A DNA stretch of 57,382 nt from Chitinophagaceae bacterium (GTDB lineage: Bacteria > Bacteroidota > Bacteroidia > Chitinophagales > Chitinophagaceae): contig JACCYQ010000039.1 in NCBI GenBank assembly GCA_013696395.1, positions 1 to 57,382 of the forward strand. The letters are read 5' to 3'. Position numbers and translations under genes: made by a program. The notes beneath the pieces were generated by a model, which did not search any database, was not told where the DNA came from, and saw only the letters and a list, made by a program, of their open reading frames with translations. Position 1 is the stretch's first letter. Every line of letters begins with the position of its first letter. Below, in pieces: positions 27,762 to 38,680 of the stretch.

Positions 27762-29318
27762 TTATTTACTCTCCATCCGCACAACCGGAATAATCATTTC
27801 CTCCATGCTGACTCCTCCATGCTGAAATGTGTTTTTATAATAATTCACATAATAGTTATAGTTGTTAGGATAACATAAAAAACCATCTTCTTTGGCAAAT
27901 ATGAACGATGAGTTAATGGTTGGAACAGGTAATCCAACTTCCCGGGGATCACGGAATGCCAGAACATCCTTACTTTCATAATTCAGATTCCGGCCGTGTT
28001 TATAACGAAGATTGGTAGTAGTTTGTTTATCTCCTACTACTTTGTAGGGAGTTTTTACACGGACACTTCCATGATCCGTGGCTAATACAATCCGCACACC
28101 TTTATCGGCAATTTTTTTCAATGCCTGGTGTAGCGGAGAGTGCTCGAACCAGGAAGTGGTCAGACTTCTATAACTAATCTCATCTCCGGCAAGTTCCTTC
28201 AATACTTCCATTTCAGTCCTGGCATGACTTAGCATATCAACAAAATTATAAACCACAACATTCAGATCATTATTCATCAGATTATGAATATTGTTAACCA
28301 GTTCCAGTCCTGCACTATTATTTAAAACTTTAGTATAGGAGAATTTAAAATTTTTATCCGCTACTATATTCAGTTGCCCTTTTAAAAATTCCAGTTCCGA
28401 CTGATTTTTTCCACCCTCATCATTATCATTTTTCCATTCATTTGGAAACTTTTTTTCAATATCTATCGGTAACATGCCAGCGAAAATTGCATTACGTGCA
28501 TATTGTGTTGCAGTAGGTAAAATGCTGTAAAATGAATCTTCTTCCAGTATGCGGAAGCTTTCTGCGAAAATAGGTTGAATAGCTTTCCACTGATCTACCC
28601 GCAGGTTATCAATTAATATAAAAAACAAAGGCTTACCCTTTTCAAGGTGTGGAAGCACCTTAGTTTTTATTAATGTATGGGACATTATTGGGCCACCTGT
28701 ATTTTTCGGATTTAGCCATGAAGCATAATTCCGGGAAATGAATTTAAAAAATTCGGTGTTTGCTTCGCTTTTTTGAGATTGCAGAATTTCCTGCATTTCA
28801 GGGCTATCACTTTTTTCCATTTCCAGCTCCCAATAAACCAGTTTTTTATAAATATCCATCCATTCATTATAATCCGGATTGCTGTTTAAAGCCATAAATA
28901 AATTACGAAACTGTTGCTGGTAAGCGCTAGTTGTGGTTTCAGCAACCAGCCGGCGGTTATCAATAATTTTTTTTAAACTTAACCAAACCTGGTTAGGATT
29001 TACAGGTTTAATAAGATAATCACTAATCTGGTTACCAATAGCTTCATTCATCAGGCCTTCAGTTTCATTTTTGGTAATCAGTATTACAGGTATTTGCGAG
29101 TTCACCTCCTTAATCTTTGCAAGCGTTTCCAGCCCGGTAATACCAGGCATACTTTCATCAATTAAAACAACATCAACCGGATTTTCTTTAACATAATCAA
29201 TGGCGTCAAAACCATTCGTTAGTGTGGTTACTTTGTAGCCTTTACTTTCTAAAAATATTTTTTGTGATTGCAGGCTTTCTATTTCATCATCGATCCAAAT
29301 AATATTTACAACGGCCAT
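27762..29318 (-). CDS. porX: PorX: response regulator with PglZ phosphatase-like domain (type IX secretion control)
   Basis: Two-domain protein of 518 residues. The receiver domain (about 1-120) has IWIDDE, phospho-acceptor Asp54 in VLIDESMPG and Lys104 in YLIKPVNP. A helical linker leads to an alkaline-phosphatase-like PglZ domain (about 200-518). Metal and catalytic residues are visible in FILIDNLRVDQW (Asp237), ILPTATQYARN (Thr near 269-271), DMLSHAR and ATDHGSVRVKTP. PorX works with the kinase PorY to control type IX secretion genes, and its PglZ domain can hydrolyse oligonucleotides. No porY is adjacent. tsaE and alanine dehydrogenase, which I recall as usual porX neighbours, lie about 5.4 kb away. 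Confidence 0.95.
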   Translation of the reverse strand: MAVVNIIWIDDEIESLQSQKIFLESKGYKVTTLTNGFDAIDYVKENPVDVVLIDESMPGITGLETLAKIKEVNSQIPVILITKNETEGLMNEAIGNQISDYLIKPVNPNQVWLSLKKIIDNRRLVAETTTSAYQQQFRNLFMALNSNPDYNEWMDIYKKLVYWELEMEKSDSPEMQEILQSQKSEANTEFFKFISRNYASWLNPKNTGGPIMSHTLIKTKVLPHLEKGKPLFFILIDNLRVDQWKAIQPIFAESFRILEEDSFYSILPTATQYARNAIFAGMLPIDIEKKFPNEWKNDNDEGGKNQSELEFLKGQLNIVADKNFKFSYTKVLNNSAGLELVNNIHNLMNNDLNVVVYNFVDMLSHARTEMEVLKELAGDEISYRSLTTSWFEHSPLHQALKKIADKGVRIVLATDHGSVRVKTPYKVVGDKQTTTNLRYKHGRNLNYESKDVLAFRDPREVGLPVPTINSSFIFAKEDGFLCYPNNYNYYVNYYKNTFQHGGVSMEEMIIPVVRMESK

Positions 29319-29645: not shown

Positions 29646-30926
29646 ATGTACGAAAACAGTAAAAGACTTTTTGAAAGAGCCGGAAAATATATTCCTGGTG
29701 GTGTAAACTCTCCGGTCCGGGCTTTTAAGAGTGTTGGTGGTACCCCAATTTTTATGAAAAAAGCAAAGGGTGCTTATTTATTCGACGTAGATGATAATCG
29801 TTACATTGATTATATAGCCTCATGGGGTCCTATGATTCTTGGTCATGCTTACGATCCCATTATTAAGGCCATCCAGGAGAAAGCAATTGAATCTACTTCA
29901 TTTGGTGCACCTACCGAACTGGAAATTGATATGGCGGAACTTATTATTGGGATGGTTCCGAATGTTGATTTGATAAGAATGGTAAGCAGTGGAACAGAAG
30001 CGTGTATGAGTTCCCTTCGTTTAGCCAGGGGTTTTACACAGAAAAATAAATTTATCAAGTTTGAAGGTTGCTATCATGGACATGCTGATTCCTTCTTAGT
30101 AAAAGCCGGGAGTGGTTTAGCTACTTTTGATATTCAATCTGTTCCAGGTGTTACATCAGGAGTTGCAGCAGACACACTTACCTGTGCTTACAATGACCTG
30201 CACGCAGTTGAAAACCTGGTATCTCATCATAAAAATAAAATTGCCGCAATCATCGTTGAACCGGTTCCCGGTAATATGGGTTGCATTTTACCTAAGGCGG
30301 GTTATTTAGAAGGGTTAAGAAAAATTTGTGATGAAGAAAAAATCGTTTTAATTTTTGATGAAGTAATGACCGGGTTCAGGCTGGCAGCAGGTGGAGTGCA
30401 GGAAAAATATAATATTCAAGCAGATCTTGTTTGTTACGGAAAAGTTATTGGTGGCGGATTGCCTGTGGGTGCTTTTGGGGGCAAACAAAAAATCATGGAA
30501 CACATATCACCACTAGGCAATGTTTACCAGGCAGGCACACTTAGTGGTAATCCCATTGCCATGATTGCAGGGTATACTTTACTCAAAGAATTAAAGGATA
30601 ATCCTTTGATATATTCAGAATTAGAAAAAAAAACGATTTACCTGAAGAATGGTCTTGAACGGGTTTTTAGTGATTGGGGGAACCCATTTGTTATTAACCA
30701 GTCAGGTTCTATGTTGAGTGTTCATTTCAGTGATGGGCCAGTAACAGATTTTGCTTCGGCCACTGCTGCAAATAATGAATTTTACAAAAAATATTTTCAT
30801 GGAATGTTGAAGCAAGGAGTATACTTACCCCCATCCGCCTTTGAAAGTTGGTTCTTAAATAATGCGCTCACTTATGCTGACCTTGATGCCACTATTGAAT
30901 TTACCCGAAAAACATTAGAAACATGA
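29646..30926 (+). CDS. hemL: Glutamate-1-semialdehyde 2,1-aminomutase
   Basis: PLP enzyme of 426 residues that converts glutamate-1-semialdehyde to 5-aminolevulinate, the committed precursor of haem and other tetrapyrroles. Visible motifs are [37 protein letters not shown], the PLP phosphate and ring contacts in [10 protein letters not shown] and FDEVMTGFR, and the Schiff-base Lys266 in [13 protein letters not shown]. Length is normal. The gene stands alone, and no other haem gene is nearby. A terminator follows immediately. Confidence 0.98.
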
Positions 30927-30972: not shown

Positions 30973-31446
30973 TCAGTCTACTACTACAATTCCTTTTGCC
31001 ATTACACTAATTTCCTTTTTAGGTTGTACAATAGCCGCAATTTCTTCAGGTGTTTTCCTGGCATCTTCAGCATAGTGTCGCAGTTCTTCCACCGATGTTG
31101 TTTTTAATTCAATCTTACCATCGAGTACAACTGTTTTTCCAATTGCTGCAACTGGAAGAAAGAATCCATAATCCTTCATTTTCACCATAGCTGTGGTACT
31201 GTCATTTACCTGCAAAGTAACCCAGCAACCTTTTTTAGCGCACACTTCAAGGATCTTGCCTTTTATTTTGGTATCGATAATTGAATTGGTTTCAAGTTTG
31301 GCAGGAATTTCCGCGATGTTTATGGCGCCATCTGCAGTAATCTTTTCACCATACCAATCACCCTTATTTGCTTCCCCAGCAGGTGGTTGAGCCTGCGTTG
31401 CAATGGCAAATGTAATTATCGAAAAAACAAGAAATATTTTTTTCAT
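30973..31446 (-). CDS. DUF4920 domain exported protein
   Basis: A 157-residue exported protein with a signal peptide (MKKIFLVFSIITFAIATQAQ). The mature part matches the DUF4920 pattern: YGEKITADGAI near the start and the conserved CAKKGCWVTLQV in the middle, where two Cys could bind a metal or form a disulfide. It probably folds as a small OB-like beta barrel in the periplasm. Function is unknown. It stands alone, convergent with hemL, and a TAnnTTTG element lies 35 bases before the start. Confidence 0.85.
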   Translation of the reverse strand: MKKIFLVFSIITFAIATQAQPPAGEANKGDWYGEKITADGAINIAEIPAKLETNSIIDTKIKGKILEVCAKKGCWVTLQVNDSTTAMVKMKDYGFFLPVAAIGKTVVLDGKIELKTTSVEELRHYAEDARKTPEEIAAIVQPKKEISVMAKGIVVVD

Positions 31447-31661: not shown

Positions 31662-32162
31662 ATGCTAAGTAAACCCATACAAGCGGCCTTAAATAGCCAG
31701 GTTCAAATGGAAGCTGAATCATCACAGGCATATTTAGCCATGGCCTCCTGGGCAGAAATTCAACCAGGATTAGATGGCGTTTCCACTTTTTTCTATCAAC
31801 AATCTGATGAAGAAAGAATTCATATGCTGAAATTAATCCGTTTTGTAAATGAACGGGGTGGCTTTGCACTGATACCTGCGTTAATTCAACCAACAATAAC
31901 ATTTAAATCTGTAAAAAGCGTTTTTGCAGAGTTTTTAAAACATGAGCTTAAAGTAAGTGAAAGTATAAATGACCTTGTACATCTCTCCTTAACGGAAAAA
32001 GATTATGCAACGCATAATTTTCTGCAATGGTATGTAAACGAACAAATTGAAGAAGAAAGAACAGCAAGGGTATTAAATGATAAACTTGAATTAGTAGGTG
32101 ATGACCGGAGTGGTTTATATCTTTTCGACAGGGATATTTTGAATTACAGGGGCAAAAAATAA
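31662..32162 (+). CDS. Ferritin (non-haem, FtnA type)
   Basis: Iron-storage protein of 166 residues that oxidises Fe(II) and stores it as a mineral inside a 24-subunit shell. Ferroxidase ligands are visible: Glu17 in QMEAESSQAY, Glu51 and His54 in DEERIHM, Glu95 in HELKVSE, and Gln128 and Glu131 in NEQIEEE. There is no haem-binding Met typical of bacterioferritin. The stop codon is one base from the stop of a convergent AraC regulator, with no terminator hairpin visible between them. Confidence 0.96.
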   Translation: MLSKPIQAALNSQVQMEAESSQAYLAMASWAEIQPGLDGVSTFFYQQSDEERIHMLKLIRFVNERGGFALIPALIQPTITFKSVKSVFAEFLKHELKVSESINDLVHLSLTEKDYATHNFLQWYVNEQIEEERTARVLNDKLELVGDDRSGLYLFDRDILNYRGKK

Positions 32163-32163
32163 A

Positions 32164-33105
32164 TCATCTTAAAAGTAATTCACAGGGTTTTAATCCAGTA
32201 TGTTTTTTAAATGCTGTTGAGAAATGGGAAATGGAAGAATACCCAAGCATAACTGAAACTTCCGTAACACTTAAGCCTTTTTCATAAAGCAGAAATTTGG
32301 CATGTTCCATCCTTTGGCTTTGGTAAAAGTCAAAGATGGTGCTGCCAAACATTTCCTTAAAACCTTTTTTCAGGTAACACTCATTCATGGCCACCTTCCT
32401 GCTTAATTCCTTAATGGTTATTGGTTCACCAATTTGTTGAATAAGTATTTCTCTCGCTTTATTTATCTTTTCCCGGTCAGCCTCATTGGAAAGGAATTTG
32501 CAATTAATGGTATCGATTTCCTTTTCACCAACCATACAATCCAGGCTATATAAGAGTAACATCTGAATTTGAGCATTGATGAAAATATTTGCCAGGCTAT
32601 CAGAATAGGAATGATTCAATAAACTTTCCAATACATTCCGTGTTTTTCCGCAAAGGGGTAAAATTTTAGTAAATGAAGAATAATGGCTGAATGTCAGAAT
32701 ATTTTCAGTCAGCACATCATTGCCTTTACGAGGTTTTACAAATTGGGAAAGTTGGGCCGGAGAAAAACGAAAACTAACTATATCTACACTTTCTTCTCTT
32801 TCGGGGCAGTTTTTTGATTGACCAAATTTACAGGCATCACATTCTTTATCCTTCTCCGTGCAATAAACATTTCCTGAAATGCAGAACTTTAATTCAAGAA
32901 AATTTTTTGATTTATCTTTTTTTTCAAAATGATAAACCAGTATTCCGGTGTCTTCCATATTCCATTGAATATTACGGCTATAACGTTGTATGGCATATTG
33001 AACTGAACCTGGGATCAACTGTTCTTTTTCCTGTAACAGAATAAGATCATGCTGCATTAAATTCTGCCTGAAAGCTAATTGAAGTATCTCGGGAGGCTGG
33101 TGCAT
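32164..33105 (-). CDS. AraC-family regulator with a Cys4 cluster in its sensor domain
   Basis: Transcription regulator of 313 residues. The C-terminal third (about 212-313) is a normal AraC double helix-turn-helix domain, with ITIKELSRKVAMNECYLKKG and VTEVSVMLGYSSISHFSTAF. The N-terminal sensor domain has a compact cluster at C82, C89, C92 and C100 (CX6CX2CX7C), in a charged stretch, that could bind zinc or an iron-sulfur cluster. A fifth Cys is at 75. The ORF is convergent with ferritin, one base apart. That suggests, without proving, an iron or redox link. A TAnnTTTG element seven bases before the ATG would give a leaderless transcript. Confidence 0.9.
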   Translation of the reverse strand: MHQPPEILQLAFRQNLMQHDLILLQEKEQLIPGSVQYAIQRYSRNIQWNMEDTGILVYHFEKKDKSKNFLELKFCISGNVYCTEKDKECDACKFGQSKNCPEREESVDIVSFRFSPAQLSQFVKPRKGNDVLTENILTFSHYSSFTKILPLCGKTRNVLESLLNHSYSDSLANIFINAQIQMLLLYSLDCMVGEKEIDTINCKFLSNEADREKINKAREILIQQIGEPITIKELSRKVAMNECYLKKGFKEMFGSTIFDFYQSQRMEHAKFLLYEKGLSVTEVSVMLGYSSISHFSTAFKKHTGLKPCELLLR

Positions 33106-33120: not shown

Positions 33121-33250
33121 CGCTTCAAAACCTAATAAGCTACCTGAGTTTTGTCATATCTGTGTTTTAAAAAAATGGGGATGTGATTCATTTTGAAACA
33201 ATTTTTAACAGCTGTTAGTTAAAAAAACTTCCCTATTCTCCCTGAACAAT

Positions 33251-33258: not shown

Positions 33259-33263
33259 CACCT

Positions 33264-33288
33264 CTCCGCCCAGGGGCGGAGGCTTTTT
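33264..33288 (+). terminator. GC-rich terminator-like hairpin in the lpxA leader
   Basis: CTCCGCCC (33264-33271) faces GGGCGGAG (33274-33281), giving about seven G-C-rich pairs around a CAGG-type loop, followed by GCTTTTTAT. Its form is that of an intrinsic terminator, but it sits just after a promoter-like element and 13 bases before the lpxA start. No plus-strand gene ends closer than ferritin, over 1 kb upstream. Confidence 0.7.
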
Positions 33289-33301: not shown

Positions 33302-34108
33302 ATGATTCATCCGCATACATATATTCATCCAAATGCTAAACTGGCCACCAATGTAAAAATTGACCCATTTTCTGTTATTCACCAGGATGTTGAAATTGGT
33401 GAAGGAACATGGATTGGATCAAATGTTACTATTATGGAAGGTGCCAGAATTGGTAAAAATTGCAGGATCTTCCCCGGCGCAGTAATCGCCGCAATTCCCC
33501 AGGATCTCAAATTCCAGGGCGAATACAGTCGAGTGGTTATTGGTGACAATACAACGATCCGTGAATTTGTTACCATCAACCGCGGCACCATGGATCGTGA
33601 ACAAACAACCATTGGCAGTAATTGCCTGATAATGGCTTACTGCCACCTTGCCCATGATTGTTTAGTAGGTGACCATTGTATATTAAGTAACAATACCCAG
33701 GTAGCCGGCCATGTAACGATTGGTGATTTTGCCATTTTGGGTGGTATGTGTGCCATTCATCAATTTGTCCAAATAGGAAGGCATTCCTTTTTAAGTGGTG
33801 GTTCCATGGTAGGAAAAGATGTTATGCCTTACATAAAAGCAGCACGAAACCCTATTTCTTATGCAGGAGTTAACAGTGTTGGTTTAAAGAGAAGAGGATT
33901 TACAGTCGAAAAGATTAATCATATACTGGATATTTACCGGGTGATATATAATAAAGGATTAAATACTACACAGGCCATACAATACCTGGAAGAAGAATTT
34001 GATGCCACTGATGAACGGGATGAAATTGTCATGTTTATCCGTGAATCCCGAAGGGGTATTATCAAACGGTTTTCAAAAAACCATGTTGATGAAGATATTG
34101 CTGACTGA
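33302..34108 (+). CDS. lpxA: Acyl-ACP--UDP-N-acetylglucosamine O-acyltransferase
   Basis: Left-handed beta-helix acyltransferase of 268 residues that transfers a 3-hydroxyacyl chain to UDP-GlcNAc, the first step of lipid A synthesis. Hexapeptide repeats run from about residue 6 to 185. The catalytic His is in CHLAHDCLVG, and HQFVQIGRHSFLSGGSMVGKDV and PYIKAARNPISYAGVNSVGL match the LpxA pattern. The C-terminal helical domain contains RRGFTVEKINHI. In many Bacteroidota lpxA follows lpxD and an lpxC-fabZ fusion, but here it stands without them. It overlaps the downstream ABC ATPase by 20 bases. Confidence 0.95.
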   Translation: MIHPHTYIHPNAKLATNVKIDPFSVIHQDVEIGEGTWIGSNVTIMEGARIGKNCRIFPGAVIAAIPQDLKFQGEYSRVVIGDNTTIREFVTINRGTMDREQTTIGSNCLIMAYCHLAHDCLVGDHCILSNNTQVAGHVTIGDFAILGGMCAIHQFVQIGRHSFLSGGSMVGKDVMPYIKAARNPISYAGVNSVGLKRRGFTVEKINHILDIYRVIYNKGLNTTQAIQYLEEEFDATDERDEIVMFIRESRRGIIKRFSKNHVDEDIAD

Positions 34109-36568: not shown

Positions 36569-38680
36569 ATGGAAAAAACACAATGGAAGGTTGAAGGCAT
36601 GACCTGTTCAAATTGCGCACTAACCATTCACCAGTACCTTGAAAAAAAAGGATTACAAAATGTAAAAGTAAATGCGATTGGAGGAGATGTATCATTCGAT
36701 TTAAATGATACAACATCAACCGATCAAATTGCCAAAGGAATAGAAAAACTGGGCTACCAGGTTGTACACGAAGGCATAGCTGTTACAAGGTCTAAACCTT
36801 TTTTATCAACTCATCTTCACCGTTTTTTATTTACTCTCCCATTTACATTGGTATTGATGTTACACATGATACCAGGCTTGCATATTCTTTGGCTGATGAA
36901 TCCATGGGTGCAGTTAGGTCTTGCCCTACCTGTTTACATAGTAGGGATGTTATATTTTGGTCGAAGTGCAATAAACAGTTTGCGCAATGGCGTTCCTAAT
37001 ATGAATGTTTTGATTGCATTAGGTGCAACTGCCGCATTTGTGTATAGTTTGGCCGGACATATTATGGGGCCTGGGGAGGAATATCTTTTTTATGAAACCG
37101 CGGCTACTATCATCACCCTTGTTTTCCTTGGTAATCACCTGGAAGATACCTCTGTTGCATCCACGCAAAAAGCTTTAAAAGACCTGGCTAAGACGCAAAA
37201 AGTAATGGCGAATATGATTGCCTTTGACGATCAGCACAAGGAAATTGTTTTCCCGGTTGAAAGTTCTCAGTTAAGGTCTGGTGATCTTTTATTAATTAAA
37301 ACAGGCGAACAGGTACCGGCAGATTGTAAAATATTTTGGGGTGAAGCAGAAATAAATGAGGCCATTATAACTGGTGAAAGCATTCCTGTTTTTAAAAAAG
37401 CAAAAGACGCCCTGATTGGCGGAAGTGTTGTTGAAAATGGTACGATAAAAGCACAGGTAACTGCGGCAGGAAATGATACTGTATTGGCTAATATTATGCA
37501 ATTGGTGAAACAGGCACAAGGTGAAAAACCACCTGTTCAAAAAATGGCCGATCGCATCAGCGCTATTTTTGTACCGGTGGTAATTGGAATTGCCCTGGTA
37601 ACATTAGGCGTTAACTGGATTATTTTGAATGATTTTACGGATGCGCTTATGCGTAGTATTGCAGTGCTCGTTATTGCCTGTCCTTGTGCTATGGGTTTAG
37701 CAACTCCTGCTGCCATTGCTGTTGGACTTGGTCGCGGAGCCCGTAGTGGGATCCTTTTTCGCAATGCTTCAAGTCTTGAATTATTTAAAGACATTAAACA
37801 AGTTGTTTTTGATAAAACCGGGACAATAACCACCGGCAAATTCAGTATTGAACAATTTGATTCCGGGAGTATGAATGAGGCCGACTTTAAATCACTTGTC
37901 TATTCACTCGAAAAATATTCCAATCATCCACTTGCAAAAAGTATTGCGGCCCAATGGAAAACAAATAATGTTATCCGCTGGAAAAAAATTGAAGAAATCA
38001 AAGGACGTGGTATGCGTGCAGAAGATAAGGAGGGTAACATATACCAGGCGGGTTCTTATGTGGGTGCACTGCAACATACTAAAGAAGAACACCACCAGTT
38101 ATATGTTTTAAAAAATGAAGAACTGGTTGGCTGGGTGGACTTAAAAGATGAAATACGAATTGAATCTCAAACTATAATAAATTACCTCAAATCAAAAAAC
38201 ATAAAAACGATCCTGTTAAGTGGGGATCGGAATGAAAAAACAAGAAAAATAGCTAATGAACTTGGGATTGATGAAGTAATTGCAGAAAAAACCCCGCAAC
38301 AGAAATTGGATATCATTACTGATTTATCCGCCAGGGCCCCTACGGTGATGGTTGGTGACGGGATCAATGATGCACCGGCACTGGCAAGGGCAACGGTTGG
38401 CATCAGTATGAGTGATGCATCCCATGTGGCGATGCAAAGTTCTCAAGTTGTATTGATGAATAATGGATTAAAGAATTTGCCCACAGCGCTTGGCCTTGGC
38501 AAGCATACTTATATCACCATTAAACAAAATCTTTTCTGGGCTTTTAGTTATAACATTATTGCCATACCAGTAGCGGCGCTTGGATTTTTAACACCTACAT
38601 TTGGTGCATTGGTAATGGCATTGAGCGATGTTGTGCTGGCCATTAATTCAGGAAGATTATTTGTAAAAAAAGTGGTTTAA
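36569..38680 (+). CDS. Copper-type heavy-metal P-type ATPase
   Basis: P1B-type ATPase of 703 residues that exports monovalent copper or a similar metal from the cytoplasm. In order: an N-terminal HMA domain with C13xxC16 (GMTCSNCA), membrane helices, TGES (268-271), the C371-P-C373 metal site (ACPCAMG), phosphorylation Asp415 in FDKTGT, SNHPLA and GDGINDAPA. Helix 7 has Y661-N662. In helix 8 the MxxSS copper motif is changed to M683-x-x-S686-D687. That Asp may alter metal choice. No copper chaperone or CopZ is next to it. Confidence 0.93.
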   Translation: MEKTQWKVEGMTCSNCALTIHQYLEKKGLQNVKVNAIGGDVSFDLNDTTSTDQIAKGIEKLGYQVVHEGIAVTRSKPFLSTHLHRFLFTLPFTLVLMLHMIPGLHILWLMNPWVQLGLALPVYIVGMLYFGRSAINSLRNGVPNMNVLIALGATAAFVYSLAGHIMGPGEEYLFYETAATIITLVFLGNHLEDTSVASTQKALKDLAKTQKVMANMIAFDDQHKEIVFPVESSQLRSGDLLLIKTGEQVPADCKIFWGEAEINEAIITGESIPVFKKAKDALIGGSVVENGTIKAQVTAAGNDTVLANIMQLVKQAQGEKPPVQKMADRISAIFVPVVIGIALVTLGVNWIILNDFTDALMRSIAVLVIACPCAMGLATPAAIAVGLGRGARSGILFRNASSLELFKDIKQVVFDKTGTITTGKFSIEQFDSGSMNEADFKSLVYSLEKYSNHPLAKSIAAQWKTNNVIRWKKIEEIKGRGMRAEDKEGNIYQAGSYVGALQHTKEEHHQLYVLKNEELVGWVDLKDEIRIESQTIINYLKSKNIKTILLSGDRNEKTRKIANELGIDEVIAEKTPQQKLDIITDLSARAPTVMVGDGINDAPALARATVGISMSDASHVAMQSSQVVLMNNGLKNLPTALGLGKHTYITIKQNLFWAFSYNIIAIPVAALGFLTPTFGALVMALSDVVLAINSGRLFVKKVV

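Follow-up and report, generated by a model that had tools for sequence, protein, structure and literature searches.

Background

The AraC/XylS-type regulators AraC, BgaR, RhaR and ToxT/Rns share with the regulator described here a C-terminal double helix-turn-helix (HTH) and a direct-repeat site, putative in the present case, upstream of the promoter; the fold of its N-terminal domain (N-domain) matches theirs weakly. Unlike the AraC/XylS activators, however, this regulator has eight conserved cysteines between C75 and C202, no convincing Pfam match for its N-domain and a range of one bacterial family. PchR and YbtA are siderophore-responsive AraC-type regulators not known to have a four-cysteine (Cys4) loop. 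They resemble the present protein in being AraC-type, in controlling iron-receptor genes, a role proposed for it here, and probably in similar HTH wording; the siderophore response and the apparent lack of the loop set them apart.

Ada carries an AraC-type HTH beside a zinc-binding Cys4 domain, and this domain repairs DNA. Like Ada, the regulator pairs cysteines with an AraC-type HTH, but it lacks a match to the Ada domain: the Ada metal-binding/methyltransferase domain was absent from the 22 N-domains searched (Pfam, E up to 1), and the Ada model NF011964 scored 23 bits (cut-off 345). Fur has the kind of iron/heme regulon role proposed here for the cysteine-rich AraC-type protein; however, Fur is built on an unrelated domain (PF01475 has no match in the regulator at E 0.001) and is best known as a repressor. 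To our knowledge, no AraC-family regulator has a sensing cluster of the Fe-S or metal type, and the titles and opening lines of abstracts that searches of the open literature listed mention neither an AraC-type metal-cluster regulator nor iron control in Chitinophagaceae. Within the Bacteroidota, MliR of Bizionia is described as a MerR-like iron activator that affects transcripts for a TonB receptor, an imelysin-like protein, a Rieske protein and cytochrome c (PMC9478572). MliR is comparable in being an activator-type iron regulator of this phylum, but has a MerR fold from which conserved metal-binding sites are absent (PMC9478572).

The regulator is proposed to be a Chitinophagaceae-restricted AraC-type activator of genes for making heme and for taking up heme or iron, with a Cys4 metal or Fe-S sensor, a reading that we consider somewhat more probable than not.

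The regulator gene and its cysteines

The window, that is, the whole stretch of 57,382 nucleotides analysed here, encodes the two-HTH C-terminal domain of the AraC/XylS family within a 313-residue protein (Table 1). Its cysteines lie at residues 75, 82, 89, 92, 100, 152, 190, 202, 243 and 308. The CX6CX2CX7C pattern at residues 82-100, a spacing that the sequence-only reading judged suited to a zinc or iron-sulfur site, is exact in the window protein when cysteine positions are read from the open reading frame (ORF). That reading passed over C75, which is invariant, and C152, C190 and C202, which are conserved.

Table 1. Coordinates of the regulator, its parts and its neighbours in the window
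Feature	Position	Strand	Evidence or remark
PorX-like response regulator with PglZ domain, adjoining hemL	27762-29318	-	
hemL, glutamate-1-semialdehyde aminomutase	29646..30926	+	TIGR00713 above cut-off
DUF4920 protein	30973..31446	-	PF16267
Non-heme ferritin, convergent with the regulator	31662..32162	+	PF00210 E=5.6e-36
AraC-family regulator, 313 aa	32164..33105	-	ORF and HTH_18 match; single match in each of 144/195 family genomes
HTH_18 DNA-binding domain, residues 234-309	32179..32406	-	PF12833 E=2.5e-19; VIA-align Z up to 14.1
C152 and C190 (usually absent together), C202	32500..32652	-	codons 152-202
C75 (in a predicted protein strand) and Cys4 loop C82/C89/C92/C100	32806..32883	-	codons 75-100; loop pLDDT ~50 in both models
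Best motif-like stretch, araC promoter	33147..33173	+	degenerate; score 4.4, within background
GC-rich terminator-like hairpin and T run, araC-lpxA intergenic	33263-33282	+	~20 bases before lpxA start
lpxA, divergent neighbour in the window lineage (elsewhere often gyrB or lpxC-fabZ)	33302..34108	+	
Copper-type (CopA-like) P1B ATPase with HMA domain	36569-38680	+	

Conservation was assessed in 172 distinct sequences, consisting of 171 from 189 loci plus that of the window. C75 is present in all 172, and the loop positions C82, C89, C92 and C100 in 168, 155, 169 and 164, respectively; the figures for C152, C190, C202, C243 and C308 are 156, 154, 168, 171 and 170. An alignment-free count over residues 76-105 found exactly four cysteines in 166 of the 172; of the remaining six sequences, 3 have three and 3 have none. 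The loop spacing is 6-2-7 in 91 sequences, 4-2-7 in 39 and 4-2-6 in 12, other spacings being rarer. The cysteines are thus not there by chance, since they are kept across 172 sequences, and the loop that the sequence-only reading expected to persist in close homologues does so, being missing from some divergent ones (L074, L143, L145, L240 and L242, and probably also L243, L244 and L249). C82, C89, C92 and C100 most likely form the conserved ligand set of a candidate metal site.

AlphaFold models had mean pLDDT values of 78.7 (full length) and 77.4 (N-domain), the Cys loop being of low confidence in both. The full-length model matches AraC-type HTH domains well. For the N-domain, a putative AraC-type sensor, there was no convincing Pfam match (best E 0.0025, in one of the 22 members searched), and its fold resembles AraC-type regulatory domains weakly, with VIA-align Z scores of 6.6 for BgaR (rmsd 5.3, 110 aligned), 4.4 for AraC and 4.1 for RhaR. 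Among the families that Foldseek listed for the N-domain, none was below 0.001 (best E 0.082).

The weak likeness to BgaR, AraC and RhaR would also fit a protein in which the Cys4 hairpin is a structural zinc site, or otherwise plays no part in sensing, and the signal is a small ligand in an AraC-like pocket; heme, a ferric siderophore or a precursor of porphyrins would be examples. Further points in its favour are that the few orthologs without the loop keep the rest of the protein and that AraC-type siderophore regulators, for example PchR and YbtA, are known. On the other hand, the four loop cysteines found in 166 of 172 sequences, together with C75, C152, C190 and C202, exceed the needs of one structural zinc. 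Ligand sensing of this kind is a serious possibility that nevertheless falls well short of probable. In the preferred reading, that of a metal sensor, a hairpin of the AraC-like N-domain would present the four cysteines, backed by C75 and the C152/C190 pair, and would most likely hold an Fe-S cluster or zinc, through which activation would come to depend on the status of iron, heme or redox.

Distribution of the regulator and of Fur

The N-domain search matched 144 of 195 sampled Chitinophagaceae genomes, once in each. The family assignment follows from a sampled genome whose locus is the same as that of Flavisolibacter ginsengisoli, a member of Chitinophagaceae (L213 and L072). A profile of the N-domain matched 17 of 149 genomes sampled at order level, 6 of 295 at class level and 7 of 198 at phylum level, all of them Chitinophagaceae (genomes recur between samples). 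A wider profile matched 24 of the 149 order genomes: 17 strongly (2.4e-38 or better) and one weakly and partially (G031) inside the family, and six outside it, all weak partial matches at 8.2e-9 or worse. Among the 51 family genomes unmatched at first, the wider profile gave a weak match in 11 and none in 40; two of the 11 (L240 and L242) are divergent orthologs of the loop-less kind, and L243, L244 and L249 probably are too. Clear orthologs are therefore restricted, in the samples searched, to Chitinophagaceae, a family of environmental bacteria.

In the order sample, profile A3, built from 12 Fur proteins of sister families, detects Fur in 103 of the 131 genomes outside Chitinophagaceae (4.8e-41 or better, those 12 included) and in none of the 18 within it. 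At 1e-20 it found no Bacteroidota-type Fur in any of the 195 family genomes, 167 of which are at least 90% complete; two matches at about 1e-17 were PerR-like. A weaker FUR-domain protein is kept in many family genomes, and the three that were read look Zur-like. In the window genome, a FUR-like protein with CXXC pairs retained looks Zur-like on reading but matches no NCBIfam model at 1e-10, so that this label is tentative. Genus g32 was considered as a group having Fur instead of the regulator and was discarded, its strong FUR match looking PerR-like and having no CXXC pairs. DtxR-family regulators occur in 127 of 149 order genomes, inside and outside Chitinophagaceae alike, and were rejected as a family-specific replacement for Fur on that ground.

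Chitinophagaceae thus seem to have lost Fur: it is missing from the sample, in which the cysteine-rich AraC-type regulator is present in about three quarters of the genomes. These findings suggest that this regulator replaces Fur. Replacement is suggested rather than shown, because about a quarter of the family lacks both; none of the 51 genomes unmatched in the first search has Fur at 1e-20, so many family members manage without either regulator. The broader proposition, that a Fur-less family runs much of its heme/iron economy through a Cys4 AraC activator sensing iron or Fe-S status, is put forward tentatively and is rather less likely than not; if true, it would make the protein a new type of iron regulator on the AraC fold.

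A direct repeat at araC, hemA and receptor promoters

A count of dyads in araC promoters brought out GTCA-N7-GTCA and related dyads, besides a TAnnTTTG box. GTCA-N7-GT(C/A)A occurs in 68 of 172 araC upstream regions vs 58 of 1394 others; 26 of those 58 are at gyrB, many sharing a divergent region with araC, and 10 are at TonB-receptor clusters. A refined matrix trained on araC promoters only detects the direct repeat, GTCAY-N6-GT(C/A)A, upstream of araC at a score of at least 8.9 in 109 of the 172 orthologs. Scores show a gap between 8.9 and the next value, 7.2, in the same sequences that trained the matrix. The other 63 araC promoters have no site, and that of the window (4.4) is among them. 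Of the loop-less orthologs, L074 and L145 still have araC sites (scores 13.9 and 16.8), and the other six have none.

Outside the araC promoter, sites scoring at least 12 are denser in intergenic DNA (0.217 per kb) than in coding DNA (0.027 per kb), and 34 of 1386 gene-upstream regions have one. Such sites precede hemA in 4 of 4 cases, TonB receptors in 10 of 38 and ferritin in 1 of 13; the L206 hemA site overlaps the annotated start, and a scan of the 200 bp upstream alone misses it, giving 3 of 4. None was found upstream of hemL (0/41), hemB (0/32) or HmuY (0/7), genes that lie mostly inside gene rows. As an independent test of hemA, regions were fetched from 20 genomes, of which 15 (12 genera) contained hemA; L263, L264, L267, L268 and L269 did not and were left out. 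All 15 new hemA upstream regions have a site, scoring 16.6-19.9 and lying at most 60 bp from the hemA start. Only 5 of 3000 shuffles of the hemA regions reach 16 or more, and each of 200 column-permuted matrices matched at most 1 of the 15. The genomes are related, so that the 15 matches are not 15 independent events. A point against the link of motif and regulator is that G017, a family genome without a regulator match, still has 6 sites of at least 15 in 60 stretches totalling 1.06 Mb and holding no hem gene. Its density is 5.6 per Mb; loci with the regulator have 13.5 per Mb when the araC promoter is left aside.

The sites are also ordered relative to the promoter. With distances counted between the last base of the site core and the first of the TAnnTTTG box, all 15 regions have their best hemA site at -31/-32 or -43, in one orientation. 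A box is present for 102 of the 109 araC sites, which group near -21, -32 and -43 when oriented as at hemA and near -28, -38, -48, -59 and -70 when reversed; eleven lie elsewhere, such as at -163, -124 or +3. Tested for a period of 10.5 bp, the araC sites from -80 to 0 give vector strengths of 0.83 in one orientation (54 sites) and 0.84 in the other (38 sites); if each distance is counted once, the values are 0.66 and 0.74. Such steps of about 10.5 bp ahead of the promoter suggest an activator working from one face of the helix. The ten receptor upstream regions that bear sites are mostly without a strict TAnnTTTG box. Five TonB receptors (L017, L033, L138, L163 and L167) have paired sites upstream, in opposite orientations and 37-38 bp apart.

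From these positions we infer DNA binding and activation, just as metal on the cysteines and a signal are inferred above. The C-terminal double HTH would bind the direct repeat, with its GTCA half-sites 11 bp apart, upstream of three kinds of promoter: that of hemA, those of some receptor genes of the TonB-dependent type (for heme or siderophores) and, for most lineages, that of the regulator gene itself. Judged by site distribution, araC itself, hemA and the TonB-dependent receptors are the best-supported candidate targets. In the window, the hemL upstream region has no site and the ferritin one scores -1.6. The lpxA-flanked relatives of the window have sites at a TonB receptor at most 6 kb downstream of araC, with scores of 13.7-17.7 (L008, L017, L024, L033 and L065), and the hemA sites all come from other genomes; a corresponding role for the window's own regulator is thus argued by orthology.

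Because binding is read from promoter position alone and 63 of 172 araC promoters have no site, the GTCA repeat could instead belong to another regulator of araC, hemA and the receptors, the cysteine-rich protein being one more target. The wide occurrence of the DtxR family and the existence in another Bacteroidota of a MerR-type activator of iron genes, MliR (PMC9478572), also speak for this. Yet an 11-bp direct repeat suits the two HTHs of one AraC monomer, the sites are concentrated at hemA, at araC and at part of the receptor genes downstream of it, and DtxR proteins do not distinguish the family from its relatives. A separate regulator is accordingly considered rather doubtful. Under the preferred reading, in which the AraC-type protein itself binds the repeat, the motif, the targets and the site positions are directly testable in Terrimonas, Puia and Flavisolibacter.

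Gene neighbourhood

Gene context was compared in 156 distinct loci, four duplicates having been dropped beforehand, with representative neighbours identified by Pfam and NCBIfam. In 67 of the 156 loci, one of the five genes that follow the regulator is of a kind labelled iron/heme (hem biosynthesis, ferritin, HmuY, PepSY_TM protein or imelysin), and in none is one of the five genes upstream; in loci with a full five-gene flank, the figures are 51 of 98 and 0 of 93. This count is not blind, because the labels were picked from these same neighbourhoods, and the genomes behind it are related. The downstream genes comprise hem genes in 42 loci, ferritin in 13, HmuY in 7, PepSY_TM in 4 and imelysin in 3, and TonB receptors occur within five genes in 28 loci downstream and 1 upstream. 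The hem genes are mostly convergent with araC; receptors, HmuY, PepSY_TM and imelysin genes run in the same direction. The association holds with gyrB (43/81), lpxA or lpxC-fabZ (17/47) and other genes (7/28) as upstream neighbour, and is therefore not merely hitch-hiking with one of them. The link of homologues to iron genes, anticipated from the window alone, is thus upheld.

The same neighbourhoods bear on whether the cysteines form a thiol redox switch, closed by disulfides, rather than a metal site. Of the 172 sequences, 152 have both C152 and C190, 14 have neither and 6 have one of them (counts of sequences, not of events), as would be expected of a disulfide pair or of a shared site. 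However, four constant cysteines with a CX2C core in most spacings are more typical of metal ligands, no peroxide- or HOCl-defence gene was seen among the neighbour clusters read (most rarer neighbours being unnamed), and the RclR equivalog model reaches 22.6 bits against a cut-off of 400, in a match confined to the HTH. A redox switch is thus regarded as unlikely.

Local control of the adjoining ferritin, the role favoured by the sequence-only reading, is very improbable and is rejected as a general function: the two stop codons are indeed one base (32163) apart and 13 of the 156 loci have ferritin among the five genes that follow the regulator, but it is the direct neighbour in just 4, and 12 of the 13 ferritin upstream regions, as well as that of the window, have no motif at score 12.

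A link to copper through the CopA-like ATPase was also dropped, this gene being near the regulator in only 5 of 80 loci (flanks up to 6 kb). The window hemL is perhaps a relic of a hem gene neighbourhood. The hairpin before lpxA is possibly a leader attenuator or a chance occurrence; a search for terminator-like hairpins found two such sites vs 1.7 in shuffles.

Two further genes recur beside the regulator. A gene of about 543 codons, amidohydrolase-like by eye only, is near-downstream in 13 distant relatives (L161, L162, L163, L165, L166, L172, L183, L189, L190, L193, L194, L197 and L199). In L010, L013, L017, L023, L030 and L065, the regulator is directly followed by a small cysteine-rich protein and then a TonB receptor; the small protein is DUF6660 in L010, the one tested.
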